Virus record (IMG/VR): IMGVR_UViG_3300032278_001453
Span: 1-28,513 of that record
Length of the DNA stretch: 28,513 bases
Reading direction: 5' to 3' (one strand)
DNA from: a virus
The translations under genes and the position numbers were made by a program. Below are positions 6,379 to 25,899 of the stretch, one piece after another. Position 1 is the stretch's first letter; each line of letters begins with the position of its first letter. The notes below the pieces were generated by a model. That model made no database searches and was not told the origin of the DNA. It saw nothing but the letters and a program-made list of their open reading frames with translations.

Positions 6379-7122
6379 TTACCTACTAACTGCTGACTTG
6401 TGAAAGAATTTTCTATACCCACCACGAAAAACTGAGCCTACTTTACGAGCGCAAGCATTTTCTCTAGAGAGAAGCCTACCCCCACCATCCGTTGTGAAGC
6501 CAAGTTCCTGCTGAAAAGTTTCTCGCTTAAATGGAATCATCTGTACTAACGGAGTTCCTGCCTTAATGACACCTTCATAATCTGAAGGAGCTTTCCATAT
6601 AAAAGGAATGTTAATATATGTAGTAAACTCATCTGAACAGATTATACCAGCCACAGCCTCAAATCTACTATCCCTATTATTCATAGGAGGTATACATAAC
6701 ATTGAGTAATCTTTAGGAGTTTTAAGTATCCAGGGCGAATTGAACTTCAAAGTCACAGGACAAGAAGACATTTCCTTAAAGGGTTCAAACGCTTTGGATG
6801 CATCAGGATTTTGGCTTTGTATAACCTTATAGTCAAGAGTCTCCCCCCAACTAAACTTAGGTACAGTCCCACCTTCTACCTCAAACCCCATTGGTTCCAC
6901 GTAAATATCTGTCCATAGTGGAAGTATGTATCCTTGCAACATACTATCTAGTACAGCTGGACAACCCTTAAAACTTAATTGTGTAGAATAATATTCTTTT
7001 GCGCCTGGAAGGTCAATGCTTGCATCTTTGTACCATTGTGGTAAAGCTTGTGAAGCTGGTACAATGGGTTCTATAAATTCCCATTTAGAGTCACGTTGGA
7101 ATTCAATCTTAACAGGTTTCAT
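6379..7122 (-). CDS. DUF6065-like protein, copy A
   Basis: 247 residues. The order PIVPASQALPQWYKDAS, FKGCPAVLDSMLQGYILPLW, LKFNSPWILKTPKDYSMLC, a 'GIICSDEFTTYINIPFIWK' strand pair and IKAGTPLVQMIPFKRETFQQ resembles the uncharacterised DUF6065 family, whose members share a 'W-L-x-T-P-x-G-Y / G-x-P-x-x-Q-x-x-P-x-x-R' pattern. It is a paralogue of the gene at 10917-11690. AAAGGAT precedes the ATG. The fold is probably all-beta, and no catalytic residues can be named. The family name is a motif-based inference; the paralogy is directly visible. Confidence 0.6.
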   Translation of the reverse strand: MKPVKIEFQRDSKWEFIEPIVPASQALPQWYKDASIDLPGAKEYYSTQLSFKGCPAVLDSMLQGYILPLWTDIYVEPMGFEVEGGTVPKFSWGETLDYKVIQSQNPDASKAFEPFKEMSSCPVTLKFNSPWILKTPKDYSMLCIPPMNNRDSRFEAVAGIICSDEFTTYINIPFIWKAPSDYEGVIKAGTPLVQMIPFKRETFQQELGFTTDGGGRLLSRENACARKVGSVFRGGYRKFFHKSAVSR

Positions 7123-8433: not shown

Positions 8434-8736
8434 TTACTCTCCTGTCCAATCTAAATTCGGTTCATCGTTTGGGCCGTTATCCCAAAGGTTATCTATCTCC
8501 TTCACAGAATTCGCTACATAATACCCTAGCATATACGCCGCTTGTGCTAGAGTCTTTGCATCAGAACGAGGGTCTTGCGTTACAGCTTGGTATAGTAAAT
8601 ACAACGCCCCGTCAATGCCAGGAGCTTTCAACAAAGCCTGATAACGTTCCTCTATCATAGAATCGTCCCTGTCTCCTAAAGCTGTTTTAAGTAAACTAGC
8701 CCCTAGATACAATTCCGTATTCGATTCGGTATTCAT
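8434..8736 (-). CDS. Helical hypothetical protein, 100 aa
   Basis: ATG 8736 overlaps the TGA of the upstream gene (ATGA) and has no Shine-Dalgarno, so it is probably translationally coupled. The helical repeats (LYLGASLLKTALGDRDDSMI, TLAQAAYMLGYYVANSVKEI) resemble an all-alpha TPR-like bundle, ending in an acidic tail. Not recognised. Confidence 0.55.
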   Translation of the reverse strand: MNTESNTELYLGASLLKTALGDRDDSMIEERYQALLKAPGIDGALYLLYQAVTQDPRSDAKTLAQAAYMLGYYVANSVKEIDNLWDNGPNDEPNLDWTGE

Positions 8737-8948
8737 ATAATATGTTTTTTTATAAAATTTAGTCTAAACATTCCTGCTACACACAAACTAAAAATTATAC
8801 CCCCTAGTATTATAATTCCAATATTTACATCAGTATAACGTCCTGCGAATACTAATGCCATATCTTCAAAAAAGTGAAGAGTTCCAATTAGTACTGAAGC
8901 TAAAGTAAATTTTATGGCCCCACCACTATGTGAATGAAATAACCCCAT
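8733..8948 (-). CDS. Two-span membrane protein, 71 aa
   Basis: Two hydrophobic segments: about 14-34 (FTLASVLIGTLHFFEDMALV) and 42-62 (NIGIIILGGIIFSLCVAGMF). The C-terminus is basic (LNFIKKHII). Both termini would lie on the same side. It starts as TAATG with the thyX stop. A holin is possible by size and span count, but lysis genes are not obvious nearby. Confidence 0.55.
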   Translation of the reverse strand: MGLFHSHSGGAIKFTLASVLIGTLHFFEDMALVFAGRYTDVNIGIIILGGIIFSLCVAGMFRLNFIKKHII

Positions 8949-9595
8949 TACTCTTCCTCCCTATATTGTACTAGATATTTCCAACTTATTGGAAATAGTG
9001 TAGCACATTCCTTATCTATTTGTCTAGCTATTTCCTGTGTTTCTTCCTGAGCATCGGGTTCCATTCGTAACTTGCATACTCTAGCGAAGGCAGCTAAGGA
9101 ACCTGTCCAATACCATTCCGTGTACATAGACAACGGTAGAATCATCCTGGCTTGTTCAGCAGCTACGCCTTGTTCTAGTAACTCTTGATACAAATGTTTA
9201 CAATGAAGCGTTGTCATTGCTATATCCTTTTCTAACTCCAACAGAATTTGAACATGTCCTGAAGAACCTTGCTTCTTATCTTCGGGTTTCCCTCTCCATC
9301 CTTCTGGGCCTACCCCATAAAATACTGGAGCATCATCTACATAACGTCTACTCACCTCATTCCAAACTAGCCCAACTTGATGTTTAACTAGTTGTCTAGC
9401 CACAAAAACGGGAGCCGATATCCTAAACTGTATTTGAGGATGCCCAAACGGAGTCCAGTGCCCATGTTGTGCTAGATATCTAATCAGACGTTCATCTGAA
9501 TCTTGCCATTCATCCCTATGTTTTCTAAATGAAACTCTTGCAGCATTTACTACGGTTAAATCTGTGCCTAAACTATCCACTAACTCTACTCGCAT
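8948..9595 (-). CDS. thyX: Flavin-dependent thymidylate synthase ThyX
   Basis: 215 residues, about the usual ThyX length. It converts dUMP to dTMP using methylenetetrahydrofolate and FAD/NADPH. The signature region at residues 67-85 reads RQLVKHQVGLVWNEVSRRY: the classic RHRx7S motif is present as K71-H72-Q73 with N79, E80, S82 and R84-Y85, so the first Arg is replaced by Lys and the third residue by Gln. R150 in EQARMILPLSMYTEW matches the conserved dUMP/flavin-binding arginine, and FARVCKLRM supplies the last conserved block. The active enzyme is a homotetramer in the cytoplasm. Phages use it to keep the dTTP supply up. It follows the oxygenase cluster after 8 bp. Confidence 0.93.
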   Translation of the reverse strand: MRVELVDSLGTDLTVVNAARVSFRKHRDEWQDSDERLIRYLAQHGHWTPFGHPQIQFRISAPVFVARQLVKHQVGLVWNEVSRRYVDDAPVFYGVGPEGWRGKPEDKKQGSSGHVQILLELEKDIAMTTLHCKHLYQELLEQGVAAEQARMILPLSMYTEWYWTGSLAAFARVCKLRMEPDAQEETQEIARQIDKECATLFPISWKYLVQYREEE

Positions 9596-9603: not shown

Positions 9604-10170
9604 CTACTTTTTTATATCTACTAAATGAGCAGCTGCCATATAGTTAAACGAAACAGCTAATCGTTCCCCATTACTTTTAATGGTTTCTACTCCATGTTTA
9701 GTACTACCACTGAATATTACTAATTGCCCCGTTAATGGTTCAATGTTATGTTCCAATTCAGGAAAGAACAAAGTACCAGCATAATCTTTTGGTATGTCTA
9801 AATAAAAGACTCCACTCCATATAGAGGGCCAATGATTATGTACTTTAATGTAGTCATCCTTTTTATATAGAATCCCCCACATATTTGTAATACCTACTTC
9901 AAACGGCGTAGTCATACAATTTGGTATGAGGTTAGGTAAGTATTCTACCACACTATTGATTTCCTTTTCTAACTCTGTAAACCCAGGAGTGTTTTGCATG
10001 AATAAATCAGTCATGCAGGCGTTAGCCCCTACTGGATTATTGGCTTTGTCTCCACTATCCCTTATAGTTTGTATAATAGTATCTTTTGTAGCAGTACTAA
10101 TTTGTAAGGCTGTTGTAAATATACTATCAGACCCTTGTAAGGGAAAGTGTTGAGAAGCTATTTCTGACAT
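9604..10170 (-). CDS. 2OG-Fe(II) oxygenase, TIGR02466-like, copy 1
   Basis: The start is ATG 10170, coupled as TAATG to the Cys-rich peptide gene. A longer frame to 10209 exists but has no ribosome site. The 188-residue protein has KVHNHWPSIWSGVFYLDIP (His111 and His113), a KDYAGTLFFPELEHNIEPLT strand pair, STKHGVET (His159) and ERLAVSFN (Arg170, 2-oxoglutarate-binding). This is the HxH...H...R layout of the 2OG-FeII_Oxy_5 / TIGR02466 family, cytosolic non-haem iron dioxygenases found in many phages of unknown substrate. It is a close paralogue of 10336-10905 and lies directly upstream of thyX. Confidence 0.85.
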   Translation of the reverse strand: MSEIASQHFPLQGSDSIFTTALQISTATKDTIIQTIRDSGDKANNPVGANACMTDLFMQNTPGFTELEKEINSVVEYLPNLIPNCMTTPFEVGITNMWGILYKKDDYIKVHNHWPSIWSGVFYLDIPKDYAGTLFFPELEHNIEPLTGQLVIFSGSTKHGVETIKSNGERLAVSFNYMAAAHLVDIKK

Positions 10171-10325
10171 TACGGTTGTGTATCCCACTCCTCTTCTTCT
10201 TCGTGGCATTTTTCACAATCACATTTCATGCAATCACATTCTCTTTTTTCTCCGAAAGTAGCTTGGTCACAAGTACACTCTTCGCATGAACAGTCTGGGT
10301 CTTTAGGCCATAATTTAATATTCAT
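10170..10325 (-). CDS. Metallothionein-like Cys-rich peptide, 51 aa
   Basis: The start is ATG 10325 with TTAGGAG 7 nt upstream. An in-frame start at 10364 would lie inside the preceding gene. The 51-residue peptide begins MNIKLWPKDPDCSCEECTCD and has nine Cys in two clusters: CxCxxCxC, then, after about 12 residues, CxCxxCxCxxC (ECDCMKCDCEKCHEEEEEWD). The rest is acidic. Such dense CxC/CxxC spacing is the hallmark of metallothioneins and similar soft-metal-binding peptides. Its TAA overlaps the ATG of oxygenase copy 1, and it follows oxygenase copy 2 by 10 bp, so it may store or deliver Fe or Zn to, or protect, these enzymes (inference). Confidence 0.7.
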   Translation of the reverse strand: MNIKLWPKDPDCSCEECTCDQATFGEKRECDCMKCDCEKCHEEEEEWDTQP

Positions 10326-10335
10326 ATACTTTCTC

Positions 10336-10905
10336 CTAAGTTTTATAATTAACCATGCCATCAAAGTTAAAGGATATAGCTATCCTTTCTTGTGTGCTTT
10401 TTAACGTGTGTACACCATGCATAGTTCTTGATTCAAAGATAACTAATTGGTTTTTTACAGGTTCAATATGGTGTTCTAAATTCGGGAATAAGAGTGCCCC
10501 AGAATAGTCCGTTGGTATTTCTAAATAGAAAACTCCACTCCAGGCAGCAGGCCAATGGTTATGCATAACCGCAGATTCTCCTGTACAGTAGAGCAATCCC
10601 CACATGTCTCGTAGAACAATTTGATGATTCCCCCTCTTCTTTTTTGATATTTCTGTTACTCTTGTAGTAATTTCATGTCCTAGCATATCAAATCCAGGCT
10701 TATCTTGCATACGCCACTCCGTCATAAAAGCTTTAACATTGGATGATGCATATGGAATACCTTCATCTGCTTCTTTTAAATTACGAATGGTTTTAATCAA
10801 GCCGTTATGTACACCAGTAGGTAAAACTATCTCAGTAGTATACACACTCTCCTGTTCTGAGGACGTAAACTCTTCACATTGTATTGGCTTTTCTCTATCA
10901 CTCAC
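10336..10905 (-). CDS. 2OG-Fe(II) oxygenase, TIGR02466-like, copy 2
   Basis: GTG start at 10905 with AAAGGAT upstream. The 189-residue protein has AVMHNHWPAAWSGVFYLEIP (His115, His117), TDYSGALLFPNLEHHIEPV, SRTMHGVHTL (His163) and ERIAISFN (Arg174). The organisation and spacing match copy 1 (HNHWP...WSGVFYL, LEHxIEP, HGV.T.KS, ER.A.SFN), so the pair arose by duplication. The N-terminal half differs more than the catalytic half. It is cytosolic and its substrate is unknown. It lies between a DUF6065-like gene and the Cys-rich peptide. Confidence 0.84.
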   Translation of the reverse strand: MSDREKPIQCEEFTSSEQESVYTTEIVLPTGVHNGLIKTIRNLKEADEGIPYASSNVKAFMTEWRMQDKPGFDMLGHEITTRVTEISKKKRGNHQIVLRDMWGLLYCTGESAVMHNHWPAAWSGVFYLEIPTDYSGALLFPNLEHHIEPVKNQLVIFESRTMHGVHTLKSTQERIAISFNFDGMVNYKT

Positions 10906-10916
10906 AATAACATCCT

Positions 10917-11690
10917 TTAAATAAAATTAACGGGACACCCATGACGTTTACGATAACTGTCTTCAAAAGTAGTTGATAACGCATTCCGTTCTTGCTGCAT
11001 TTCCAACCATGTTTCATCCCCATCTTGACATTTCATATAAGAAATTTCATGTTTCCATTCTTCTCGTTTAATGGGAATAAGTTGTACTAAAGGAGTACCT
11101 TGTTTAATCACTTCCTCAAATGGATATTTAATATGGAAGAAAAAAGTTATTTGGTTTCTATAAGTATCCGTATTAACTAAACCAGTAAGTGTTTTAATAG
11201 CTGGATGCGGTTTAGATTCATCATTAAATGGAGACGTAATTAATGTTGAATACCCTGGAGGAGTTTTAATTAGCCAGGGATTACAAAACGCCATTGAACT
11301 GCCTTTAATAGAATCTTTTAATTCTGGAATATTGCCCCAAGAATCCCAATTTCTATGTTCTATCATTTCAGTACTAGGATAATTATAGGGAGGCATCTTT
11401 GGTGGAGCTACAGAAGGGACAAACTTTGGACAGCCCTCTTCACCACAGGTACATGAAGTATAAGAAAATGCTAAATCAGACCACAAAGGAATTATATAAC
11501 CAGTTCTCATAATATCCACAAAAGGCACACATCGTTTATATGTACTTCCTTGAGGAGAACCAGGGACTCTCCCATTATTTACCCGTGTGGGGTCATCTTT
11601 AAACCATTGTGGTAAAGCTAAATGGGCAGGAACGGGTTCTGGAAAGGCTCCTTTAAATGTCTCATCTATTACAAACTCCATTGTTTCCAT
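10917..11690 (-). CDS. DUF6065-like protein, copy B
   Basis: 257 residues, paralogous to 6379-7122: PVPAHLALPQWFKDD, YKRCVPFVDIMRTGYIIPLW, MAFCNPWLIKTPPGYSTLI, TGLVNTDTYRNQITFFFHIK and IKQGTPLVQLIPIKREEWKH line up block for block. It adds a Cys-rich insert (SCTCGEEGCPKFVPS: CxC-x4-C) absent from copy A, perhaps a metal site. AGGAG precedes ATG 11690. It sits between oxygenase copy 2 and the 131-residue gene, so both DUF6065-like copies travel with this block. Function unknown. Confidence 0.62.
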   Translation of the reverse strand: METMEFVIDETFKGAFPEPVPAHLALPQWFKDDPTRVNNGRVPGSPQGSTYKRCVPFVDIMRTGYIIPLWSDLAFSYTSCTCGEEGCPKFVPSVAPPKMPPYNYPSTEMIEHRNWDSWGNIPELKDSIKGSSMAFCNPWLIKTPPGYSTLITSPFNDESKPHPAIKTLTGLVNTDTYRNQITFFFHIKYPFEEVIKQGTPLVQLIPIKREEWKHEISYMKCQDGDETWLEMQQERNALSTTFEDSYRKRHGCPVNFI

Positions 11691-11701
11691 ATACTTTTCT
11701 C

Positions 11702-12097
11702 CTAACTAACATCAAAATACCAACCGTATTCAGGCATCTCCTCCATTGAACCATTCAGAACGTTCTTATTAAAATCGAAAGTCATTTGAAAATCAGACCC
11801 AGATTGAACGAAATACCACTTTACAGACGGGTCTTTAAAAGCTGCCCTATACCGTTTCCCTTCATAGAAAGCTTCATCATTAGTATCATAGAAGAATTCC
11901 TGATTATCCAAAAAATATGCTTGTAAACTTTCTAACGTCATACAAGATAAATCAAACGTAGCTAACTCAGTTATACGTTCCTCATATATTTTTTGTTGTT
12001 CTTCAAAGTCCTCTGCATCTTTACCAGTTAAGGGCGTGTTCAACTGTGCCCATTGCTGGTCTGAATAAGGTTGTGCTTGAGGGGGATATTGTTGCAT
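11702..12097 (-). CDS. Hypothetical protein, 131 aa
   Basis: GGAGGTG precedes ATG 12097. A Gln/Pro-rich start (MQQYPPQAQPYSDQQWAQLN) leads to a helical, acidic middle and an aromatic beta-rich C-terminus (DPSVKWYFVQSGSDFQMTFD, EYGWYFDVS). No metal motif or span. Not recognised. It lies between two oxygenase-cluster genes in one operon. Confidence 0.6.
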   Translation of the reverse strand: MQQYPPQAQPYSDQQWAQLNTPLTGKDAEDFEEQQKIYEERITELATFDLSCMTLESLQAYFLDNQEFFYDTNDEAFYEGKRYRAAFKDPSVKWYFVQSGSDFQMTFDFNKNVLNGSMEEMPEYGWYFDVS

Positions 12098-12115
12098 TAT
12101 TACACCTCCAAAATA

Positions 12116-12820
12116 TTATCTATATTTATGATGTGGAAAATCTCTTGTCGTAGCAAAACCCATCCATAAATTAATAGAGAACCTATTGTCTTTAAATTCT
12201 CCTTCATGTTGAGTCTCATTTACCGCATGTATACATTTATTAGATTCAAAAAATATAGCAGTATTATGTACAGGTGTATATGCTAATTGGTCTTCAAGAG
12301 TTTTGCCAGTTAATATAAGTTCCCCACCTGTATACTGTTGTGGTTCCGTATTCCAGTGAACTACACAAGTAATAACCCTTTCATGAGGGAATTCATTTGA
12401 AGTATCTTTATGCCACCCATAAAAATCACACATACCATAAGAACTTAATATGGTTTCCATGTGTGTGGTTTGAGCAATTATGGGGAACAACCCTGGTAAC
12501 TTTTTAAACGTGCCAAGAAAAGATTGGTTTGTTAGAGCTACTTCTAATTGCGATAGAATAATGCTCTTCTCTCTTCGCTTATTATAATAACCATCTAAAT
12601 ATACAACATCATTATGCCGTGTACCTAATTCTACTGTATTAGAAATGATTTCACATGTTTCGCATCCATCTAATTCTGGTAAATCGCCTATTTTGGCTGG
12701 TTCATACATAGGTTCTAACCATTGAGCCTCTTCCAAACATTTCCTAGCTGCTGGAATAGACATAAAGTTCTCTACTACTACATGAGGACTAGGACTTTCT
12801 TTATACTTTATCTTCTGCAT
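12116..12820 (-). CDS. 2OG-Fe(II) oxygenase, prolyl-4-hydroxylase-like
   Basis: 234 residues with the complete double-stranded beta-helix signature: H137-x-D139 (FYGWHKDTSNEF), GGELIL (165-170), the distal His198 (NKCIHAVNETQ) and Arg213 (NRFSINLWMGF), which should bind the 2-oxoglutarate C5 carboxylate. It belongs to the P4H/2OG-FeII_Oxy superfamily rather than to the TIGR02466 pair downstream. AGGTGG precedes ATG 12820. Such phage enzymes hydroxylate proteins or small molecules in the cytoplasm, and the target is unknown. First enzyme gene of the operon driven by the 13180-13208 promoter. Confidence 0.86.
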   Translation of the reverse strand: MQKIKYKESPSPHVVVENFMSIPAARKCLEEAQWLEPMYEPAKIGDLPELDGCETCEIISNTVELGTRHNDVVYLDGYYNKRREKSIILSQLEVALTNQSFLGTFKKLPGLFPIIAQTTHMETILSSYGMCDFYGWHKDTSNEFPHERVITCVVHWNTEPQQYTGGELILTGKTLEDQLAYTPVHNTAIFFESNKCIHAVNETQHEGEFKDNRFSINLWMGFATTRDFPHHKYR

Positions 12821-12828: not shown

Positions 12829-12975
12829 CTATTCTTTTTCTAAAATCTTCATGCTCAAAGCACCAATTAATGTTATACCACCTGTAGCAATCTCTGTCAA
12901 TCCCCAGTACATAGCAAAAAATGTGATACTCCCTAACAAACCAATGCTAAGGAGTATTTGAGGTCTAATCATCAT
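12829..12975 (-). CDS. Membrane mini-protein, 48 aa
   Basis: From tandem ATG codons at 12975/12972 to TAG 12829. Two hydrophobic stretches (ILLSIGLLGSITFFAMYWGL; ATGGITLIGAL) could be two short spans or a hairpin. It begins 2 bp after the 55-residue gene with no clear ribosome site, so it is likely read by coupling. Its end abuts the oxygenase gene. Not recognised. Confidence 0.5.
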   Translation of the reverse strand: MMIRPQILLSIGLLGSITFFAMYWGLTEIATGGITLIGALSMKILEKE

Positions 12976-12977: not shown

Positions 12978-13145
12978 TTATAAGTACTTGTAATATTCGG
13001 TTTGAATATTATCTACGTGTTTCTTACCACCATTATTTCTTAAATATTTATGATATTCTTCTGAATATCTTTTCTCAGTACAACAAACTTTAGTTATACC
13101 ACCTAGAATTAAAAACCCACATACACAAATAACAACTTCAACCAT
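12978..13145 (-). CDS. Small protein with hydrophobic Cys-containing N-terminus, 55 aa
   Basis: First gene after the 13180-13208 promoter. GGGAGG is 4 nt before ATG 13145. The N-terminus is hydrophobic with Cys residues (MVEVVICVCGFLILGGITKV, then CC), followed by a charged, Tyr-rich cytoplasmic-type tail. Probably a one-span membrane protein. No family is recognised. Confidence 0.55.
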   Translation of the reverse strand: MVEVVICVCGFLILGGITKVCCTEKRYSEEYHKYLRNNGGKKHVDNIQTEYYKYL

Positions 13146-13179: not shown

Positions 13180-13208
13180 ATTATACTCCTATTATATTGA
13201 GAAGTCAA
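13180..13208 (-). promoter_or_regulatory. Canonical sigma-70 promoter for the oxygenase operon
   Basis: On the minus strand TTGACT (13203-13208), 17 nt, then a perfect TATAAT (13180-13185). It is in a very AT-rich 100-bp gap upstream of the 55-residue gene and would drive the run of leftward genes from 13145 onward. The best promoter match in the window. Confidence 0.85.
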
Positions 13209-13248: not shown

Positions 13249-16185
13249 TTATTTCTTTGTGCTAGAATATATAGGCTTTCCCATATTTCCCATAGTTCCT
13301 GTCTGTTGCTGGAAGTTGCGTTGTGATTCAACTCCAGAATCTCCAAATCCTTGTGATGTAGTATCCCCCTTTGGCAAACTACCATTCTGAGAGAATTGCG
13401 GATTCTGTTGCTTCATTTCAGCGTCCCACTCAGCACGTTGTTTCTGGTCTGCTATATAATCTTGTTTACCAGTACCGAAACGTCTGTTAATCTTTCCAGC
13501 TAAATCTCCTGCAAACATCTGAGCAGACCAGTTAGCGGTTTGACCCGCTTGGTCAGTATCAGGCCTTCTAGATTCTAGTTCTGCGGAAGTAGGCATGGGT
13601 GCTGTATTAGTATTAGCTCCCACACCCTTAGGTGCCTGAGGTGCAGCCTTGGGCCAAGCATTTTCAATATCCCGCATAGCATTCTGTCTTGACATGCCTA
13701 CCTTAGCTGGTGTAACATCACCTTGTTTCATCAGTTTTAGAAGAGCCTTTTCAACAGAGTTTACATGAAAGCCTTCATCAGGATGTTTATAATCCTCGTA
13801 AGTACTATCAGTGTCACGCACAGCTGCTTCCCTAGCCTTTCGTTGAGCATCATAGAGAGCCTTAATATATTCCCAATCTGGTTTTCCTGAGCCAGGATGT
13901 TGGTAATGTGGCAATGTTTCTCTATGAGGAACATCTCCTTCAAAGGCATCCCGTTCAGTTAATCTACGCATGGCTTCTTGACCAGTAAGAGGTTTCCCAT
14001 AATTTACAACGTCATGGTCACCTTCATACTTCTCCCTCTCATCATCAAAATCATCAGGTAATGAAGATACTTTAAGTATGGCCTCCTCCATAGGAATTTT
14101 ATCACCCCAAGCACGTTTTTGGGCAGCATCGTCCTTACTCTGGCTTGGATGTTCATCAGGAGCCATTCTCCGATTGATTTGACGTTGCTGATAAATACGT
14201 TTCATCTCTTCAGCCCTCTTACTTCCCTGAGGTTCTGGCCCCTCGCCTGCTTGCCAGGGCCAATGGGGATTATCCTCAGCCTTCTTAAACATCTTGTCAT
14301 TCGTACCAACTTCAGACTTAGGACGTTTGGAATCGCCATTAGCTACCAATGCTTGGGATTCTTTATTCTCTTTAGGGAGGCTTCCCTTATCCATTGCATT
14401 TAGTGGTTGCTCATCTCCACCTTTCATAAGTTTAAGGAGGGCTTTTTCAACAGACATTTCAAAAGGACTCTTTCCAGCGGGTCTATCACGGGCTATCTTT
14501 TCACTAGCCTGTCGGCCCCGCCAATCTTGTCGAGCATGAGCATCCATTAGTTCTGGCCTATCTGGTGCTTCATAAGCAGATTCAGGTTGGAAAAAATCAC
14601 GGGTAGCTCTACCAGCCCTACCAGGCATGGTAGTTGCTCTACCAGCACCATAGCCCATACGTTCTCCTACCTGTTCTAGACCTGTTTGTGGGCCTACATC
14701 CCCAATGTTTTCTCCAACTGGTGGCTCTATGAGATGTTCAGGTGTATCCCTCATAGACCAACCCCCTCTTAAACCCGCACGAACTTCTTCAGCAGGGCGT
14801 GTAACGCCAGCCCTTAAAGCATCTTCTGCTACCTCTGGATTTAATTCACTAGCAGAACGGTCTGCCACACGCATGGGAACATTACGGATAGCTCTACCAG
14901 CCCTTTCTGCCCTAGATTGTGGTTTAGCATCTCTATGTTCGCTGAAATACTTATCCCTATTCTCGTCAGGCATTAGTCCACGCCCGAAATTACCAACTGC
15001 ATCTGGTATCCGAATTTTCTCAAGGTCTTCGTCTTTCATCAATTTGAGGAGAGATTTTGTAACGTTATTGTGAATATTTTCCTGGCCTGGTGCCCTTTGG
15101 TCAAGTTTAGCTTCGCCACGTTGAACTACAGGTACGTCTTTCCCACTCTCACTTCCAAGAGAATCAGGGTTTTCCCCTGGTTGTGGCTGTCCAAAGGTAA
15201 TCTCGGAAGGTAATCTCCATTCTTGTGTATCCATACCCCTTTGAGATACATCACCTCTAGGAGAGGGAATGTCTCGTTCAGTATCCTCCATAGGGCCACC
15301 AGGGAAACCAACTTTTATAGTACGAGGGTCTTTTAAATCCTCTGCCCTTCTACGAAGCCACTCCTGAGAATCTTCCAAATGCTCATCTGCCTTCATAAGT
15401 TTAAGCAAAGCATTTTCTATAGCTTTCGATGTATTAGGGAGTTTCCTCCCATGTATTGTTTGAGTATGATATAGAGAAGGGTCAGCTTCCATCTCAGCCC
15501 GTGCCTTCGCCCCTCTTTCTAAAGCACTTCTTGAGCCATATCTCATATGTCTAGCTCGTTCTCTTAGTGCCTCTGGAGAAGCTTCTTGTGCTAATCGGTC
15601 AGCAGAGGTTTTTCGGGCAGCATCTACCATTTCAGGAGGCATATCAGTAGGCCGTCTACCCAAGATAGTCTCAGCCCGTTCCCCAGCCGTAGGAGTACTT
15701 CCTATATCTCCCTCTTCAGGAGTTCGGGGTAAATTCCCAGGTGTGCCCCCAGACAAACCTGGCAGGGGTTCATATGTTACAGGTTCTTCAGAAGAAAAGG
15801 GTTCCAGTTGTCTTTGAGTAGCACGGAACCTGGGCTTCTCTTCAGCCTTCATTAATTTTAGCAAAGCTTTTTCAACAGAAGATTTATATGGATAATTACC
15901 CGCACCAGCAGTATCCTCGTCTTGGGGATAACTATCACGGCCTACTCTACGGTCATCCCTTCTTAGTTGTGCCCTCTCTTTAGAAGTGAAACCATTCTTT
16001 AATGGAACACCTGGGCCTTCGGGATGGTCTGCGCTAGTCACAGGAGCTTTAGGCAAAGGTGTAGATTCATCCCAATCAGGATTTTCTTCCGACACCCCTC
16101 TATCACCGCCAACATTGTTTTTGAAAAAGTCTAGAGTTGATTTCCAATGTAGATTATTCTCGATTGGTTTTCCATAGTCTGGCAT
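13249..16185 (-). CDS. Giant low-complexity head-module protein with five LLKLMK motifs, 978 aa
   Basis: AGGAG precedes ATG 16185. The protein is mostly Pro/Glu/Arg/Asp-rich and predicted disordered, with no enzyme domain. Its striking feature is a motif S/N-V/I-E/T-K/N-A/S-LLKLMK at residues 103-113, 255-265, 374-384, 578-588 and 810-820, each followed by an acidic patch (AEEK, ADEH, DEDL, GGDE, QGDV). A degenerate copy (MEEAILKVSSL) is at about 699. Between motifs are RxxR/Gly segments. It sits directly downstream of the protease gene. It could be an internal head protein, scaffold or substrate polyprotein whose helices target it to the capsid (inference). The ends resemble no known family. 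Confidence 0.8.
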   Translation of the reverse strand: MPDYGKPIENNLHWKSTLDFFKNNVGGDRGVSEENPDWDESTPLPKAPVTSADHPEGPGVPLKNGFTSKERAQLRRDDRRVGRDSYPQDEDTAGAGNYPYKSSVEKALLKLMKAEEKPRFRATQRQLEPFSSEEPVTYEPLPGLSGGTPGNLPRTPEEGDIGSTPTAGERAETILGRRPTDMPPEMVDAARKTSADRLAQEASPEALRERARHMRYGSRSALERGAKARAEMEADPSLYHTQTIHGRKLPNTSKAIENALLKLMKADEHLEDSQEWLRRRAEDLKDPRTIKVGFPGGPMEDTERDIPSPRGDVSQRGMDTQEWRLPSEITFGQPQPGENPDSLGSESGKDVPVVQRGEAKLDQRAPGQENIHNNVTKSLLKLMKDEDLEKIRIPDAVGNFGRGLMPDENRDKYFSEHRDAKPQSRAERAGRAIRNVPMRVADRSASELNPEVAEDALRAGVTRPAEEVRAGLRGGWSMRDTPEHLIEPPVGENIGDVGPQTGLEQVGERMGYGAGRATTMPGRAGRATRDFFQPESAYEAPDRPELMDAHARQDWRGRQASEKIARDRPAGKSPFEMSVEKALLKLMKGGDEQPLNAMDKGSLPKENKESQALVANGDSKRPKSEVGTNDKMFKKAEDNPHWPWQAGEGPEPQGSKRAEEMKRIYQQRQINRRMAPDEHPSQSKDDAAQKRAWGDKIPMEEAILKVSSLPDDFDDEREKYEGDHDVVNYGKPLTGQEAMRRLTERDAFEGDVPHRETLPHYQHPGSGKPDWEYIKALYDAQRKAREAAVRDTDSTYEDYKHPDEGFHVNSVEKALLKLMKQGDVTPAKVGMSRQNAMRDIENAWPKAAPQAPKGVGANTNTAPMPTSAELESRRPDTDQAGQTANWSAQMFAGDLAGKINRRFGTGKQDYIADQKQRAEWDAEMKQQNPQFSQNGSLPKGDTTSQGFGDSGVESQRNFQQQTGTMGNMGKPIYSSTKK
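13726..15879 (-). repeat. Five-copy protein-level LLKLMK repeat
   Basis: Coding copies at 15847-15879, 15391-15423, 15034-15066, 14422-14454 and 13726-13758. The five 33-nt segments encode nearly the same 11 residues but use different Leu, Ala/Ser and Lys codons (for example the fourth to seventh codons differ in most pairs), and spacing is irregular (152, 119, 204 and 232 residues). Recent DNA duplication would leave similar codons, so the identity is probably kept by selection on the peptide. Confidence 0.8.
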
Positions 16186-16188
16186 ATG

Positions 16189-19100
16189 TTATCTCCTAGT
16201 TCCAGCTAACCCAAAGGCTTTAGCAAATATCTTATGTACAGGGACAGAATTTTCTACAGAGTATTTAATGGGTTCTCTATCTTGTGCCCATGCAGGCCTT
16301 CTAGCATCTCCCCTAGGTGTTGGCCTGCTAGTCCTTCGCCCATAATCTTGCGGCCCCCTCACTCCTGTGTGAGCGGCGGTTCGTTCTTCTTCAGTAGATT
16401 CTTGAGTAGGTTCTTGTCTTGCCAATCCATCCATTGAAGGACGGTCACCACGTAGCCGTTTGAGTTCAATGCTTCTCCCAAATTCATTGGAATCTCCAAG
16501 CCTATTTAGAATAGCATCGTAAGCTTCTGCTCCAGCACCACCATGTCTTCCATGATGTACTTGCATATTGCGGCCTAAATGTTGCCTCATATCCGCAAAA
16601 TTGATGGGTTTATTCCAATCATCATTACTCATGTTTATACTATGATGATTTGCAAACCTATCTCCATCTTCTGTTTGACCTAAGTGATGGATAACTGACA
16701 TCCAATCTTTGGGGGATAGCCTGCCACCTTCATTTATATGGTCTAAACGTTCTTGTACATGATTATGTCTCTGGTCAGCATCCATTCCTTGATGGGCTGT
16801 GGGAGAGTAGCGAACATCTTTCCCTACACCCTCATTAACACCCATGCGTCTCTGTTGTTGGGCAAGTCTACCGTATCGAGGAATCCTATCTACACCCTCA
16901 CCAACTAGTTCTTGACCTCGGCCTACGTTTTCATCCAACCAACCACGTAGTTTGGCTCCAGCCCCCCTGCCACGCATTCCAGCTTCATCAGCCTGTCTAC
17001 GGGTAGCCCCTAATTCATCAGGCATATATCTCCTGGGCTGTCCAACACGCCTGGCATCTTCTGGGTCTTCCATAAAGCCCCGTCCAAAGCCTCTTGCTGC
17101 CCTAGCCCCACGTCCTAGCCATTGTCGAGCCATACGGCCTACCTGTCCACCACGTTCACGAGAACCAGCACCTAGACGATTATCTGTTTCACCCAAGACA
17201 GATGCAGGATGGTCAGATACAGGCAAGTCAGGTCTTACATCCTCACGAGGTTTCATAAACCCACGGAATGCACCACCAGCAAATTCTGCTCCTCTCCTAG
17301 CCCCACGTCCTATCTTACGAGCTTCTTGGTTGGCCCAAGCAGCCCCCTTACCCTCGTTCATTGATTCGTCTCTGAAACCTCTGCCTATGTTTTCAGCAAC
17401 TCCACCCACTTCTCCACGTAAATCTCGGAGATTTTGGTCAGCCTCACGGTATTTCTGCCTACCACCTCGGAACAAGCGTTTCATTCCTTGATGAGCTTTT
17501 TCTCTAGGAGATAGGTTTGCCATCCTATCCCTTCGGCCTTCATACCCTCTTCGGCCTCTAACGCCAGCTACAATTTCATCAGCATCGTATTCTTTGCGTC
17601 CACCTCTTCTTTCCCGCCCTTCTCTTGCGGCATCTGCCCTGTTTCTTGCAGCTGTCTGCCCTGGCTCATCTTCCCCACGGCGATATCGAATGCCTGGGCC
17701 TTGTAAAGGTTGTCTGCCCCCTCTTGGTTGGTCTTCTACAGGAGTTCTAACTGCTCGGCCCTGTGCAGGACTAATTCGTGTGTCATCACGTCTACGTCCA
17801 GCCTGAGTATCAGCATCATCATCTGGAACTCCACGAATTTTTTCTCGTAATGCTTGACTACCTACAGCATCATCCTGTTGGGGTCTACGGAATAAGTTTT
17901 TAAATCTTCCCCACACACCAGGCTTCTTACCCCGTTCTCCCTCCCCCTCTTCTGCTGTAGGTTCAGCAGAAGGTGCAGCAGCCCGTGCCCTCACCCCAGC
18001 AGGCGAAGCACCAGGGAAAGGAGCTTGGTCAACATTAGCTTCTCGTAAAGCAGCAGCCCTATCTTTCGGAGCATACATCTCTGGGTTATACGGAGAGGTT
18101 GGCCCAGACGTTGGCAGAGGAGTAGGACGTTGATAATCACGCATTAAATCTGCTTCCCCCGCACCAATCGGGCTTTCGTTACGTCTACCTTGTTCAGTTT
18201 GTACTGGTTGGGTTCCAGCAGGATTTTTTACATTATAGGGGTTTGGCGCACCATAATTTACTTGTGGTTGCCAAGCACTTACACCCATTGTCTCCCCTGT
18301 TTTGTCAGGATTTTCACCTTCAGGAAAGGCTTGTCCAGGGTTTGCTTTACCCATACGTTTTGCAGCTTTCTGCATAATATCTTCAAAAAGATTGATAGAC
18401 TTTTTCAAGTCATCGTCATTATCCAGTCTTTCGCCCAGATTTTCTCCCGCTTCATTTACAACCCACGGAGGTCTAACATTAATAGGACAACCATCATCAT
18501 CAGTTTCGGTTTCAGATACAGGGATATAACGCATCGTTCTCATATCAACTTCGGAAGGGAAGCCATAACGTTGAAGAAGGCGATGGTGTTCGGCTTCCCT
18601 CCCCGCAAAATTATTAAGAGTAGTGAACGACTTACCACTCTTTAATGGGTCTTCTTCTTTTGACATCCAATCTAAAAAGGAATCCTTAAAGTTTATTTTA
18701 CCAGTATCATCAGACCTCATAATCACAATCTTCCTTTTAATGGATACATGTGGCTGGCTTCCTTCTTCACAAGCCTCAAAGAGTCTGCAATAATCCCCAG
18801 GTTGAATATCGCCAACTACAACCTCACATGTTTTCCGTTCTGCATTAAAGTATTTGCAATGACCACAATTGATTCCCATTTGCATTTCGGGTGCCGTTGC
18901 ATCACGATACCCACATTGGTCTTTATCTACTTTTCCTGTTTGAGGCAACTCTGCTTTAAGCAGTTCAAAGTTTGCCCCCTGATTTACACCTTTCTCACAA
19001 ATAGTAACTTCAGCTAATTCCATTTCATCCACTTGCATGTAAGGAGTTTGGCCCTTCATCATATTTTGAACTTTGGTTGCACTTCCAGCTATTGAATAAC

Positions 19101-19644
19101 TCTTTAACATTCCAGTATTAATCTGGTCTGCTACTTTTTTAGCAATTGCTGTATCATCACGCAGTTCACAGATAAAGAATAACCCCTGGTCACCTACACC
19201 AGATTTAAATATCTGCCCACCTTTAGATATATAAGCGGGTAAAGCCCAACCTACCTGAACGTCTGAATGTAGTACCATAACGTTACGAGTACGTTGGTTA
19301 TCCATAAACTTTTGGAAGGCTTTACCCAATGCTTGAGTAGTAATTAAATGACCTTCTCTATCAATCATTTCAACAGATGCGGGGCCACCAATAACTAAAG
19401 GTTCCACCATATCCATTTTTTGAATTCCTACCGCTGCTTGTTGATAAGTAGGACTATCTGGAAAAGCCCTATGGAGGGTCATAATTTCGGCTTTAGAAGC
19501 ATTTCCTGCATCAAAATTATTTCGGTATTCACCTAAAGCATCCTGAATGTCTTCCATTGTAGTTTTACCAGTTTGTCCCTTCTCTAACCAAAAGATAGAT
19601 TCGGGTCTTTGAGCTACTTCTGATGTAGTAAAATATCTAGACAT
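16189..19644 (-). CDS. Head maturation protease (XkdF-like) with HiPIP-like Cys motif and long Arg/Gly tail, 1151 aa
   Basis: Residues about 76-230 match a phage prohead serine protease of the XkdF/S78-like type: VEPLVIGGPASVEMIDREG, H126 in NVMVLHSDVQVGWALP and S184 in KSYSIAGSATKV, ending in VTICEKGVNQGANFELLKA. Next, C244 and then C260-x2-C263-x9-C273-x12-C286 (NCGHCKYF...TCEVVVGD...DYCRLFEA) resemble the four-Cys [4Fe-4S] motif of high-potential iron proteins. Residues about 420-1100 are a low-complexity Arg/Gly/Ala/Pro region with imperfect repeats such as GRGARRGAEFAGGAFRGFM and GRGARAARGFGRGFM. The C-terminus reads KYSVENSVPVHKIFAKAF, partly like the SVEKA motif of the next gene. Ordinary proheads proteases are 200-400 residues, so the tail is unusual. 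Confidence 0.8.
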   Translation of the reverse strand: MSRYFTTSEVAQRPESIFWLEKGQTGKTTMEDIQDALGEYRNNFDAGNASKAEIMTLHRAFPDSPTYQQAAVGIQKMDMVEPLVIGGPASVEMIDREGHLITTQALGKAFQKFMDNQRTRNVMVLHSDVQVGWALPAYISKGGQIFKSGVGDQGLFFICELRDDTAIAKKVADQINTGMLKSYSIAGSATKVQNMMKGQTPYMQVDEMELAEVTICEKGVNQGANFELLKAELPQTGKVDKDQCGYRDATAPEMQMGINCGHCKYFNAERKTCEVVVGDIQPGDYCRLFEACEEGSQPHVSIKRKIVIMRSDDTGKINFKDSFLDWMSKEEDPLKSGKSFTTLNNFAGREAEHHRLLQRYGFPSEVDMRTMRYIPVSETETDDDGCPINVRPPWVVNEAGENLGERLDNDDDLKKSINLFEDIMQKAAKRMGKANPGQAFPEGENPDKTGETMGVSAWQPQVNYGAPNPYNVKNPAGTQPVQTEQGRRNESPIGAGEADLMRDYQRPTPLPTSGPTSPYNPEMYAPKDRAAALREANVDQAPFPGASPAGVRARAAAPSAEPTAEEGEGERGKKPGVWGRFKNLFRRPQQDDAVGSQALREKIRGVPDDDADTQAGRRRDDTRISPAQGRAVRTPVEDQPRGGRQPLQGPGIRYRRGEDEPGQTAARNRADAAREGRERRGGRKEYDADEIVAGVRGRRGYEGRRDRMANLSPREKAHQGMKRLFRGGRQKYREADQNLRDLRGEVGGVAENIGRGFRDESMNEGKGAAWANQEARKIGRGARRGAEFAGGAFRGFMKPREDVRPDLPVSDHPASVLGETDNRLGAGSRERGGQVGRMARQWLGRGARAARGFGRGFMEDPEDARRVGQPRRYMPDELGATRRQADEAGMRGRGAGAKLRGWLDENVGRGQELVGEGVDRIPRYGRLAQQQRRMGVNEGVGKDVRYSPTAHQGMDADQRHNHVQERLDHINEGGRLSPKDWMSVIHHLGQTEDGDRFANHHSINMSNDDWNKPINFADMRQHLGRNMQVHHGRHGGAGAEAYDAILNRLGDSNEFGRSIELKRLRGDRPSMDGLARQEPTQESTEEERTAAHTGVRGPQDYGRRTSRPTPRGDARRPAWAQDREPIKYSVENSVPVHKIFAKAFGLAGTRR

Positions 19645-20573
19645 TACCCTTCATGCACTCCCCAGATTACTCCGTACACCTGGGTACTAGCCCCAGAAGC
19701 AATAGCGGATATCTTAACTCGTGCATCTATAGGCCAATTAGTTTCTATAGTTTCTCCTGCCTTTAAAAGGATACCTGTAGAAGAAGCCCCCGCAGCTGTG
19801 GCATCAGTATCTATAGATATATTGGCAGTTTGACTACCATGCCCATTCTTGAGTTTGAATCCTCTAACCGCAGAAATTCCTGGCCTACGTTTAGATTCTG
19901 ACAAGTTAGCTGTGCCCATCCATTCGTAATTAACGCCTTGGGCACCGTCTACATAATCGCTTAGATTACCGTCTCGACGTTGCTCTACCATAATTTTATC
20001 TACATACATGTCAATATTATGTTGTGTTACAGAAACAACAGCCACTCTATATTCAGCGGCTACTCTCTCTGCAATATCATATTTCACATTTAAGCGAACA
20101 AAGCTAGTACTGAGACTATGAGTAGCACTGGCAGCTAATTCAACTCCCGCACTATTTTGAATTACTATTTTAACGTCACCAGACGCAGAAGCCCCCCTAA
20201 CTTCACATTGTGCTACAATGGCTGTACCTTCCGTATGGCCTGCAAATGTATGTGTCCAATAAAATCCTTCTCCCGCAGCAGCGTTTGCTGGATTAACAAG
20301 AAGAGAGTTGCTACCTGTGGCAGCTTGGGCACTACTTTGAGATATTGCGGAACCAGAGGCGGTAAATTCAGTAATCGTAGCGTGTTCAATAGAGGGGTTT
20401 TTCACAAGGTTGACAGCTGGCTCTCCCCGTGATACAGTTAATAAATCAACTGCACTGGTACCAACTTGAGCGTCAATCGGAACATATTTATTCCATACAT
20501 GTACACTCGTTCTGGTACTAGGGTCTATTTCCCATTGAGGCCAGTTCTCTGGAAAATGTTCTGAAGTTGGCAT
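19644..20573 (-). CDS. Virion structural protein with carbohydrate-binding-like beta-sandwich, 309 aa
   Basis: AGGAG precedes ATG 20573. After a short N-terminal part, residues about 50-210 begin VNLVKNPSIEHATITEFTAS and look like a CBM_4_9-type jelly roll (GSNSLLVNPANAAAGEGFYW, MYVDKIMVEQRRDGNLSDYV). The C-terminal part (GFKLKNGHGSQTANISIDTD, VYGVIWGVHEG) is beta-rich. Such modules are common in phage head fibres or tail appendages. Its place in the head module, between a small membrane protein and the protease, favours a head-decorating or fibre role. Family inferred from pattern. Confidence 0.6.
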   Translation of the reverse strand: MPTSEHFPENWPQWEIDPSTRTSVHVWNKYVPIDAQVGTSAVDLLTVSRGEPAVNLVKNPSIEHATITEFTASGSAISQSSAQAATGSNSLLVNPANAAAGEGFYWTHTFAGHTEGTAIVAQCEVRGASASGDVKIVIQNSAGVELAASATHSLSTSFVRLNVKYDIAERVAAEYRVAVVSVTQHNIDMYVDKIMVEQRRDGNLSDYVDGAQGVNYEWMGTANLSESKRRPGISAVRGFKLKNGHGSQTANISIDTDATAAGASSTGILLKAGETIETNWPIDARVKISAIASGASTQVYGVIWGVHEG

Positions 20574-20581
20574 ATAATCTC

Positions 20582-20851
20582 CTAATCAGTTGAGAACCAG
20601 TTCATTATACCAATAAGGCTTCCCAGCACAATCGCAGAATGGACGAAGATTACGCCCATCACGAATAAGGCTGATTTAGCCCCATACATACGAGTTCTCC
20701 AATGTTTTATTTCATCGAGGTCATCATTAAGTTTCTCTAAACTATGGCTAATTGTTGTGTTTAATTGAGTTTGCCCATCTATATACCTATCTAATCGCTC
20801 TGTATAGACTGCTAGGTTTACCTCTATAGAGGCATCATTTAGAGCAGGCAT
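20582..20851 (-). CDS. XhlA/holin-like membrane protein, 89 aa
   Basis: A coiled coil (LDRYIDGQTQLNTTISHSLE, LNDDLDEIKHWRTRMYGAKS) followed by one hydrophobic span (SALFVMGVIFVHSAIVLGSL) near the C-terminus. The order (heptad helix, HWRTR basic patch, transmembrane segment) matches haemolysin XhlA-like phage proteins that work with holins in cell lysis. The gene lies among head genes rather than a lysis cassette, so the function is open. The ribosome site is weak. Confidence 0.55.
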   Translation of the reverse strand: MPALNDASIEVNLAVYTERLDRYIDGQTQLNTTISHSLEKLNDDLDEIKHWRTRMYGAKSALFVMGVIFVHSAIVLGSLIGIMNWFSTD

Positions 20852-20859
20852 AAGGCATA

Positions 20860-21183
20860 TTATCTACCGAATACTAGTACACGAACTGCTACCGCTGAAA
20901 CGTCTGTAGTGTTGGCTACCTCATCTAGAATTGCTCCATCTGCGCCAGCTTCATACAAAGCTATTTTTGAATTAGTGTAATCATATTGAGGAACATATCC
21001 ACTGTTTTCCATAGACAAGGCAACAAAATGAATTGATTCCAAGCCTAAGGTAGTAGCGGTTAGAGCCTCACCACCTGTAGCATAGCTGCTATCAAAGGTG
21101 CAAGTTTTAATAACGTATTTATTGTTGCCAGGAACACCTGTCATATCTGAAGCATTGCCTGGAACTGTAATAGTAAGAGCCAT
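20860..21183 (-). CDS. Head decoration-like protein, 107 aa
   Basis: AAGGAGG precedes ATG 21183. A short all-beta protein with KYVIKTCTFDSSYATGGEAL and TATTLGLESIHFVALS, the 'TFDSSYxTGGEALTAxxLGL' pattern repeatedly seen just after major capsid genes in tailed phages. It is probably a capsid decoration or minor head protein. It is separated from the capsid gene only by the 21212-21247 hairpin, which would lower its level relative to the capsid protein. Confidence 0.65.
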   Translation of the reverse strand: MALTITVPGNASDMTGVPGNNKYVIKTCTFDSSYATGGEALTATTLGLESIHFVALSMENSGYVPQYDYTNSKIALYEAGADGAILDEVANTTDVSAVAVRVLVFGR

Positions 21184-21211
21184 AGTTCATCCTCCTTAAA
21201 TAGAACAAGAA

Positions 21212-21247
21212 GAGAGGGCGGGGATATCTTTCAACCCCCGCCCCCTC
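21212..21247 (-). terminator. GC-rich hairpin after the major capsid gene
   Basis: GAGGGCGGGG (21214-21223) pairs with CCCCGCCC-C-CTC (about 21236-21247, one bulged C). The loop is about 11 nt. Read on the minus strand, the stem is followed by TTCTTGTTCTATTT, a moderately U-rich run, so it probably acts as a partial intrinsic terminator that reduces read-through into the decoration-like gene. Confidence 0.72.
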
Positions 21248-21253
21248 AGCGAA

Positions 21254-22618: not shown

Positions 22619-22647
22619 ATTATATCTCCTTAAACTTGTTCGTTAAA

Positions 22648-23493
22648 TTATCCTAATAGTTCCCGTGGAACGCCATCAGTCTCGCCATTCTCGATGGTTT
22701 CCTGCAACCGACGCAAATCCTGATAGGACAATTGCATCATCTGGTCAACAGTATCCTGTCCACTCGATTCTTTCTGAATCAGAGCAGTCCCATCGGTACC
22801 CATGCTATCTTCATAGCGGATAATGGTAGGACGAGTGAGCGAAGTCTCTTCACGGAAGCCCATCTTTCGTAGACGGCCCTCAGTTTCCTGTTGAACGGCT
22901 TTCTGCATATCGAAAGAGCCAGTCAACGCAGCCTTCAACTCGTTAATCTGCTTCTGCATATTTTCTATTGCTGGATACTCTTCAGCGTTCTCGACGGCAT
23001 AATGCGTCAGGCCCATCCGTTCTGAATCCTCATCGCCATTCTCTTCTTCGTCATCTTCTGGTTTCTTTTCCTCTTCATCCATGTCCTCATTGCCATTAAA
23101 CTCATCTTTTAACAAGTCAAGCTGTTTTTGCATAGCTTGAATAGTTGCCTGCTGGTCAGTCAGTTTGTTAACAACAGTGACTGCTTTCTCGGAGTCATCG
23201 TGGCCTTTCGCCACAGACGAAGCTTTACGTTCTTTCGCAGAGCCTTCCTTATCAAGGTCAGGCATACCAGCGTCAGCTTTAATCAAACCGTAAACTTCAC
23301 CAGCAACGGCTTTAATGATTTCTTGCTTCTCAAAGGCATCCTGTTCGTCTTCAGCCAACTCCATGTCATACTCTTCCTGCTTACTTATACGGGAGTCCAT
23401 CTTGTGTAAGACCTCCGCAACAGCAGCAAGAGCAAGATTAGAGCCTTCTATCTGTTTCTCCAACCTGTCCACAATGTCATAGTCTTGTGCCAT
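22648..23493 (-). CDS. Scaffold-like acidic coiled-coil protein, 281 aa
   Basis: The start is ATG 23493, 6 nt after AAGGAGG. An in-frame ATG at 23499 touches the ribosome site and is less likely. The protein has a helical start (AQDYDIVDRLEKQIEGSNLA), a long coiled coil, and a very acidic centre (MDEEEKKPEDDEEENGDEDS), and ends with a Gln/Glu-rich helix (QDTVDQMMQLSYQDLRRLQE). The position just before the capsid gene, together with acidity, coiled coil and size, is typical of head scaffolding proteins removed by the protease. No sequence family was named with certainty. The promoter region at 23586-23615 is upstream. Confidence 0.65.
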   Translation of the reverse strand: MAQDYDIVDRLEKQIEGSNLALAAVAEVLHKMDSRISKQEEYDMELAEDEQDAFEKQEIIKAVAGEVYGLIKADAGMPDLDKEGSAKERKASSVAKGHDDSEKAVTVVNKLTDQQATIQAMQKQLDLLKDEFNGNEDMDEEEKKPEDDEEENGDEDSERMGLTHYAVENAEEYPAIENMQKQINELKAALTGSFDMQKAVQQETEGRLRKMGFREETSLTRPTIIRYEDSMGTDGTALIQKESSGQDTVDQMMQLSYQDLRRLQETIENGETDGVPRELLG

Positions 23494-23563
23494 GTGCATC
23501 CTCCTTCCTAGTTCAGAAAGTTGGTCTAAGCCACCTCCGACTTCCCGATAAATAAATAGATAC

Positions 23564-25778: not shown

Positions 25779-25899
25779 AAGCCCTCCTCACTGTAAGTAC
25801 TATAATGGTGCCACACATACGGCAATTTAAGTCTTTGTCCTCATTGACATACATGCTGCCTGAACATTTAGGACATATACTATCAGAAATATTAGGCAT
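25582..25899 (-). CDS. Zinc-ribbon ORF overlapping the HTH-phosphoesterase gene
   Basis: The start is probably ATG 25899 (MPNISDSICPKCSGSMYVNE), 8 bp before the end of the giant protein gene, with AAAGG upstream. C9-x2-C12 and C26-x2-C29 (NCRMCGT) make a convincing zinc ribbon. The frame then stays open about 197 bp into the HTH-phosphoesterase gene, giving an Arg/Asp/Gly-rich tail (DGDIEMDRGRVRDFDS, RRRGRPRRT). The tail may be genuine overprinting or simply a stop lost to chance or sequencing error. The ribbon is the more trustworthy part. Confidence 0.5.
   Translation of the reverse strand: MPNISDSICPKCSGSMYVNEDKDLNCRMCGTIIVLTVRRAYDSRTGKIRDNKKKGRGGDVDGDIEMDRGRVRDFDSSNHRPTLVRQRGFQRRRGRPRRTLGVDRG

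Follow-up and report, generated by a model that had tools for sequence, protein, structure and literature searches.

Genes for 2-oxoglutarate (2OG)-Fe(II) oxygenases in marine viruses have been proposed to serve in 2OG/NtcA signalling or in DNA repair (PMC3037559), and decoration of metabolites or of the capsule has been put forward as another role for viral 2OG genes (PMC7824862). For a cyanophage cluster that holds an amino-acid halogenase together with 2OG-Fe(II) enzymes (2OGFeDO enzymes), a survey of jumbo phages proposed the tailoring of small molecules (PMC7824862), and the halogenase VirX1 takes many aromatic small molecules as substrates, the table of a halogenase review giving no gene cluster for it (PMC8407142). 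Here we describe a 28,513-base virus contig from IMG/VR (IMGVR_UViG_3300032278_001453; the whole contig is called the window below) in which the block at 9604-12820 sets three 2OG-family genes (OG1, OG2 and OG3, in order of transcription) beside a gene of DUF6065 (phrog_7084; DUFa), a protein family of unknown function of which a second copy (DUFb) lies downstream. Our analysis indicates that the block is an accessory insert belonging to a wider viral cassette, the enzymes of which may act on tail fibres. No mention of DUF6065 by name, and no description of its pairing with 2OG genes, was found in the literature searched.

Comparison with loci anchored on the major capsid protein (MCP; the best 80 of 371 related contigs, 44 of which were searched whole together with the window) separates the insert from the backbone of the virus group. 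In L089 (MCP 76% identical) a 48-aa gene, a Cys-rich peptide gene, thyX (74%) and a homologue of the gene at 8733 are present, with no oxygenase and no DUF6065 at the same site, and of 12 distinct related loci, 11 have a Cys-rich peptide gene directly after the 48-aa gene. Because of this empty site and of these 11 loci, the peptide and thyX are assigned to the backbone, and the insert consists of the oxygenase and DUF6065 genes: OG1, the 11702 gene, DUFa and OG2 lie between the 48-aa gene and the peptide, and OG3 between the peptide and thyX. Only two of the 45 records searched (window included) hold phrog_7084, namely the window and G005, and the same two hold phrog_81. G005, a 66,941-base record with an MCP 95% identical to that of the window, has the order Gly/His-rich gene, DUF6065, OG1 (64.6% identity) and OG3-type gene (52.5%), neighbouring genes overlapping or standing no more than 60 bp apart, and L017 has the order OG1 (58% identity), OG2, Cys-rich peptide.

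Beyond this group, DUF6065 and 2OG genes are linked in viruses more often than chance allows, and the link is one-sided. The viral DUF6065 loci compared were 87, seven found with the window's pair and the best 80 of 131 found with four DUF6065 query sequences (L299 and L012 are one contig), and they contain 97 copies of DUF6065, which form 49 clusters (single linkage at 70% identity). Using local hidden Markov models (HMMs) at 1e-5, a 2OG gene was detected within 3 kb of DUF6065 in 22 of the 49 clusters and within 300 bp in 16, both kinds of 2OG gene being present in six. The density of 2OG genes falls with distance from DUF6065, from 0.203 per kb (<1 kb) through 0.129, 0.104, 0.084, 0.029 and 0.021 to 0.000 (6.5-8 kb), and the two genes are directly adjacent in 17 of 42 loci against a mean of 8.06 under shuffled gene order (p 0.0002, 5000 shuffles). 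There is no 2OG match in the 759 kb that the 80 MCP-anchored loci span, nor in 1,269 kb of 80 bacterial DUF6065 loci (the best 80 of 137; going by their record titles, almost all are from Alphaproteobacteria). Seen from the other side, phrog_7084 occurs in none of 40 records retrieved through the TIGR02466 pair, and PF13759 in neither of two haloviruses nor in any of three rhizobial plasmids searched. Co-occurrence of DUF6065 with 2OG genes, which a preliminary description of this DNA had offered, for TIGR02466 genes, as a check on a shared reaction, thus appears when DUF6065 is the starting point and disappears when the TIGR02466 pair is. The same description had read meaning into the duplication of both gene kinds; two DUF6065 copies do occur in five of the seven records found with the window's pair (near-identical in two of those five), but the link to 2OG genes does not extend to the alphaproteobacterial loci or, for PF13759, to the two haloviruses. 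Rhizobial DUF6065 genes (L147, L148, L149, L150) lie near genes for an RNA polymerase sigma factor and an S8 peptidase, with an anti-sigma factor gene also nearby in L147 and L150, a context that differs from the viral one.

Two neighbours that had been counted into the pairing drop out. ThyX matches its family profile (TIGR02170 144.6 bits, cut-off 87.9) and was rejected as part of the system, since in L089, which has no cassette, thyX occupies this very site and none of the 49 viral DUF6065 clusters has a ThyX gene within 5 kb. The Cys-rich peptide, which has no Pfam match at E <= 1, metallothionein families included, was rejected as an oxygenase partner, as 11 of 12 related loci carry one and the 80 MCP-anchored loci are free of 2OG matches. 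The place of these peptides is conserved and their sequence variable (L089:12352-12528, L105:5331-5483, L114:5542-5694, L127:9960-10109 and others).

DUFa is a DUF6065 member by both profiles (PF19541 29 bits, cut-off 26.6; phrog_7084 E 1.9e-41). The second, downstream DUF6065-like gene of the preliminary description is upheld by phrog_7084 (DUFb, E 5.7e-45) but scores only 14.6 bits with PF19541, below the cut-off. Structure models of DUF6065 reached a predicted local distance difference test score (pLDDT) of 68 from a 12-sequence alignment, and a pLDDT of 83.5 and a predicted template modelling score (pTM) of 0.81 from a 72-sequence alignment. Compared with the PDB by Foldseek, the first model found dUTPases in all 50 matches listed of 351 (best E 1.1e-3), and the second found named dUTPases in 47 of the 50 listed of 405 (best E 1.2e-3), the other three being chains of entry 6h4c, the title of which leaves the chain unnamed; match probabilities were 0.98-1.00. 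With VIA-align all 50 entries listed for either model are dUTPases, the best at Z 9.0 (129 residues, 4.6 A) for the first and Z 9.5 (129 residues, 5.2 A) for the second. The sole two PDB matches to a DUF6065 sequence at E <= 10 are also dUTPases (E 0.68 and 1.9) and align at the dUTPase motifs GxIDxDY and G-x-R-x-A-Q. Profile alignment of DUF6065 with five dUTPases by hhalign gave E 2.2e-4 (probability 45%) from 24 sequences, with the motif regions co-linear, and E 0.0027 (probability 11%) from 72 sequences, the control against a 2OG alignment giving E 0.39.

What DUF6065 appears to share with dUTPase (PF00692) is a predicted beta fold with co-linear GxVDxD and G-x-P-x-x-Q segments. It departs from dUTPase in motif 2, where PRS gives way to P-x-N, and in motif 4, where GxRxAQ (GdRiAQ) gives way to GTPxxQ (GTPlvQ), and has in addition an extra N-terminal stretch, the invariant Cys54 and a C-terminal helix. 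Among 95 DUF6065 sequences (191 thinned at 80% identity), in an alignment that is uncertain around position 113, Cys54, Gly64 and Pro200 are invariant, and 84 have Asp at position 173, that of the motif 3 Asp of dUTPase (the D in GxID), which we take to be catalytic. Both window copies lack it, DUFa having Asn there and DUFb Cys. As PRS and GxRxAQ are replaced and the window copies are without the catalytic Asp, we describe the fold as dUTPase-like, on the strength of the models, and do not place DUF6065 among the dUTPase enzymes; the PF00692 profile has no match in the window at E <= 0.001. The DUF6065 homologue of cyanophage S-CREM1 was deposited as a 'triphosphate nucleotidohydrolase', a name that agrees with a dUTPase-like fold. 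A search for true dUTPases gave a match in one of 23 DUF6065-bearing records (HF2), and by eye that frame reads as a dCTP deaminase. Adjacent or near-adjacent DUF6065 pairs in several contigs (L010, L012, L013, L016, L252, L300 and L305) suggest, as far as gene order can tell, that the paired products form a hetero-oligomer. A 222-aa protein encoded beside or between DUF6065 genes (L010:7295-7963, L013:5256-5924) resembles, on inspection by eye, a highly diverged DUF6065 protein.

Turning to the oxygenases, OG1 matches the viral prolyl-4-hydroxylase-like 2OG oxygenases (PF13640, E 1.7e-14, 55 bits, cut-off 27; phrog_61), and it keeps the canonical HxD and RxS (HKD 137-139, RFS 213-215), with a distal His seen by eye. 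Among phage records it has one weak relative, in S-RIM4 (22% identity), where the OG1-like gene stands directly after a PF13759 gene (MK493321.1:19323-20542); the same adjacency is seen in L017 and G005. OG2 and OG3 match PF13759 (49.3 and 55.1 bits, cut-off 27) and come just below the TIGR02466 cut-off of 62.5 (57.7 and 52.4 bits), so that the earlier assignment of the three genes to two 2OG subfamilies stands at the level of PF13640 and PF13759 and falls short at TIGR02466. With the putative PF13759/TIGR02466 oxygenases of solved structure (3bvc and 2rg4) they share the pattern HxH...H...R. In place of the canonical HxD/E, HxH occupies 44 of 44 aligned PF13759/TIGR02466 rows including OG2 and OG3 (four of the rows are seeds, two of them also among the matches), a similar H-x-H is aligned in 3bvc and 2rg4, and the distal His and Arg are kept in 43 of the 43 PF13759 rows that have letters at those positions. 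The HxH of these proteins, in the window and in L017-L056, raises the question whether three histidines form an iron site there.

Closely comparable clusters are those of cyanophages, 17 records of which carry a DUF6065-like gene. In 14 of these the end of a tryptophan-halogenase match coincides with the start of DUF6065 or lies shortly before it (the exceptions are S-RIM4, Sf-CH5 and Sf-CH8); the adjoining halogenase of syn9 matches VirX1 (PDB 6qgm) over all 530 residues, and in Syn10 the VirX1 gene and the DUF6065 gene overlap by 17 bp. 2OG genes follow DUF6065 by a few hundred bases in S-RIM44, syn9, P-TIM40, S-CREM1 and Sf-FP1, and the S-CREM1 row runs from a halogenase through DUF6065 to eight 2OG genes and a JmjC gene. 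As in the window, 2OG genes lie within about 0.7 kb after phrog_7084 in syn9, Syn10, S-CREM1, S-RIM44, P-TIM40 and Sf-FP1; unlike these viruses, which are Kyanoviridae or unclassified, the window lacks a halogenase, of VirX1 type or any other, and carries the Cys-rich peptide and thyX alongside. In L318, eight 2OG matches, one DUF6065 gene and three halogenase matches lie within 14 kb.

The neighbourhood of the paired genes points to fibres. Collagen-like frames, counted as runs of at least six G-X-Y triplets, are present in nine of 21 DUF6065 loci with a 2OG gene and in none of 21 without (Fisher p 0.0013), two classes defined by two HMMs only, and in 0 of 80 MCP loci, 0 of 40 TIGR02466 loci and three of 80 bacterial loci. 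The frame ends 20-551 bp upstream of DUF6065 in seven of the nine. Within 3 kb upstream of DUF6065 a Gly-rich gene is found in 9/18 loci with a 2OG gene and 2/19 without (37 of the 42 loci, those with 1.5 kb upstream, were counted), compared with 4/52 same-contig and 8/167 MCP-locus control genes. At up to 4.5 kb upstream, such a gene occurs in G005 and in five of seven cyanophages (Syn10, S-CREM1, Sf-FP1, S-RIM44 and P-TIM40; not S-RIM4 or Sf-CH5), and in neither of the two haloviruses tested. From their context and from some deposited cyanophage names (tail fiber protein in Sf-FP1, collagen-like protein in S-CREM1), these Gly-rich genes probably encode fibres.

A reading in which the enzymes act on tail fibres best accounts for this neighbourhood, and for that reason we prefer it. 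The block would be an accessory insert at a backbone locus of a tailed virus, belonging to a wider viral tailoring cassette that places DUF6065, with its predicted dUTPase-like fold, beside 2OG-Fe(II) oxygenases, in cyanophages also beside a VirX1-type halogenase, and often behind tail-fibre or adhesin genes. The most likely targets of hydroxylation by the oxygenases would be exposed residues of tail-fibre proteins that are Gly-rich or collagen-like, with the DUF6065 protein serving the enzymes as a partner for binding or assembly; in the lineage of the window it would probably bind only, its dUTPase catalytic Asp having apparently been lost. We put the probability of this reading at about 0.4. 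Gene order, neighbourhood and the predicted fold support a module that recurs among viruses, in which 2OG oxygenases have a partner of dUTPase fold; from it we infer a physical complex, hydroxylation, the fibre as substrate and the same role for the window's cassette. A bolder version, which we hold to be somewhat unlikely, is that DUF6065 was recruited as the partner of 2OG oxygenases and VirX1-type halogenases in an unrecognised virion-modification system that would hydroxylate, and in cyanophages also halogenate, tail-fibre adhesins and perhaps alter receptor binding, the partner in the window's lineage being a pseudo-enzyme.

Several observations weigh against the tail-fibre reading. The window itself has no G-X-Y run, and neither of its DUF6065 copies is preceded by a Gly-rich gene within 4.5 kb; as it shows no such fibre gene, the substrate is taken from its relatives (G005 and other viruses). 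Six of the nine loci that have G-X-Y runs show no more than one Pro in the triplets of each frame; this excludes classical collagen prolyl hydroxylation as a general reaction, and the modified residue, if fibres are the substrate, need not be proline. To judge from its residues, the catalytic activity of OG2 and OG3 (9604-10905) is uncertain because the acidic iron ligand is absent. Every Foldseek E-value for DUF6065 in the PDB is above 0.001, no 2OG gene was detected within 4.5 kb in 21 of the 42 viral DUF6065 loci, and accessory genes may lie near fibre genes through position alone. Many marine-virus 2OG genes await a substrate, and a recurrent partner, its fold, the gene order and a tail-fibre candidate make the question testable. 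DUF6065 gains a predicted fold and VirX1 a genomic context, and modification of tail fibres, if true, would supply VirX1 with a native substrate.

Alternatively, the oxygenases, with halogenases where these are present, could serve to synthesise a secondary metabolite or to decorate a glycan of the host, as was proposed for the cyanophage cluster. The halogenase directly upstream of DUF6065 in most of the cyanophage records, the long row of modifying genes in S-CREM1 and the broad aromatic substrate range of VirX1 (PMC8407142) all speak for such tailoring. Among the IMG/VR clusters, however, a tryptophan halogenase lies within 5 kb in only 3/49, the open reading frames and profile matches of the window block include no carrier protein, synthetase or transporter, and the association with fibre genes is left unexplained, so we regard small-molecule tailoring as unlikely.

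Modification of nucleotides or DNA bases, in which the dUTPase-fold protein, ThyX and the oxygenases would act on pyrimidine nucleotides or phage DNA, draws on the predicted fold of DUF6065 and on the Asp that most non-redundant DUF6065 sequences have at the catalytic position, as well as on haloviral gene order: DUF6065 adjoins thymidylate synthase in HSTV-2, HRTV-7 and HRTV-11 and ribonucleotide reductase in HF2, HRTV-5 and HJTV-1, and is near the latter in cyanophage S-RIM4. Three results set against it make it, in our judgement, quite improbable: the separation of thyX from the cassette, both in L089 and across the viral clusters; the Asn and Cys of the window's own copies; and the absence of PF13759 from the two haloviruses tested, which have the nucleotide-gene neighbourhood. 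An insertion hot spot where DUF6065 and 2OG genes both settle beside tail genes with no functional tie is more doubtful still, for although many DUF6065 loci lie beside tail-like genes with or without 2OG genes and half of the 42 viral loci have none, the adjacency exceeds that of shuffled gene order twofold and the window and G005 hold the same gene set in different order.

The three 2OG-family genes, the Cys-rich peptide, the DUF6065 protein and thyX are all present on the - strand as the preliminary description had placed them (Table 1). From 13145 down to 8434 the gaps between genes are -4 to +18 bp with a GGAGG-like site at most starts, which is consistent with the operon that had been proposed; the strong promoter assigned to it at 13180 fared less well, as there are 36 promoter-like sites where shuffles lead one to expect 29.9, so that the site at 13208-13180, although the best of its region, is no proof of a promoter. 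The peptide runs from an ATG at 10325 to a stop at 10170, where the OG3 start overlaps as taATG, 10170 being the better start for OG3.

Table 1. Genes and putative promoter of the accessory block and its surroundings in the window.
Position	Strand	Name	Description
13180-13208	-	promoter-like site	matches 11/12 consensus positions; putative
12978-13145	-		first gene of block in transcription order
12829-12975	-		conserved 48-aa gene; bounds the insert on the 5' side
12116-12820	-	OG1	2OG-Fe(II) oxygenase, prolyl-4-hydroxylase-like; PF13640
11702-12097	-	131-aa protein	inside cassette; no family over threshold (Pfam, phrog and TIGR profiles)
10917-11690	-	DUFa	DUF6065/phrog_7084; predicted dUTPase-like fold; Asn at catalytic-Asp position
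10336-10905	-	OG2	PF13759 (TIGR02466-like) oxygenase-family; HxH replaces HxD/E
10170-10325	-	Cys-rich 51-aa peptide	metallothionein-like composition; backbone gene of virus group
9604-10170	-	OG3	second PF13759 (TIGR02466-like); start overlaps peptide stop
8948-9595	-	thyX	flavin adenine dinucleotide (FAD)-dependent thymidylate synthase; backbone, outside insert
8733-8948	-	71-aa conserved gene	3' side of thyX; same place in relatives
8434-8736	-		last gene of block in transcription order
6379-7122	-	DUFb	second phrog_7084/DUF6065-like; Cys at catalytic-Asp position

The G+C content is 0.361 in the cassette, 0.412 in thyX and 0.458 in the structural block (13249-23499). By DNA, the search for close phage relatives gave a single 59-base match, in thyX. 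The MCP of the window matches only nine named records, eight of haloarchaeal viruses and one of a Methanofastidiosa virus, for which reason an archaeal host is possible for this tailed virus. A 978-aa protein (13249-16185, - strand) repeats (V/I)xxxLLKLMK five times, possibly, judging by the motif, a virion-targeting or scaffold-binding peptide, and the frame at 25892-28492 ends in ILNALLKVDY, which is related to this LLKLMK-type repeat.

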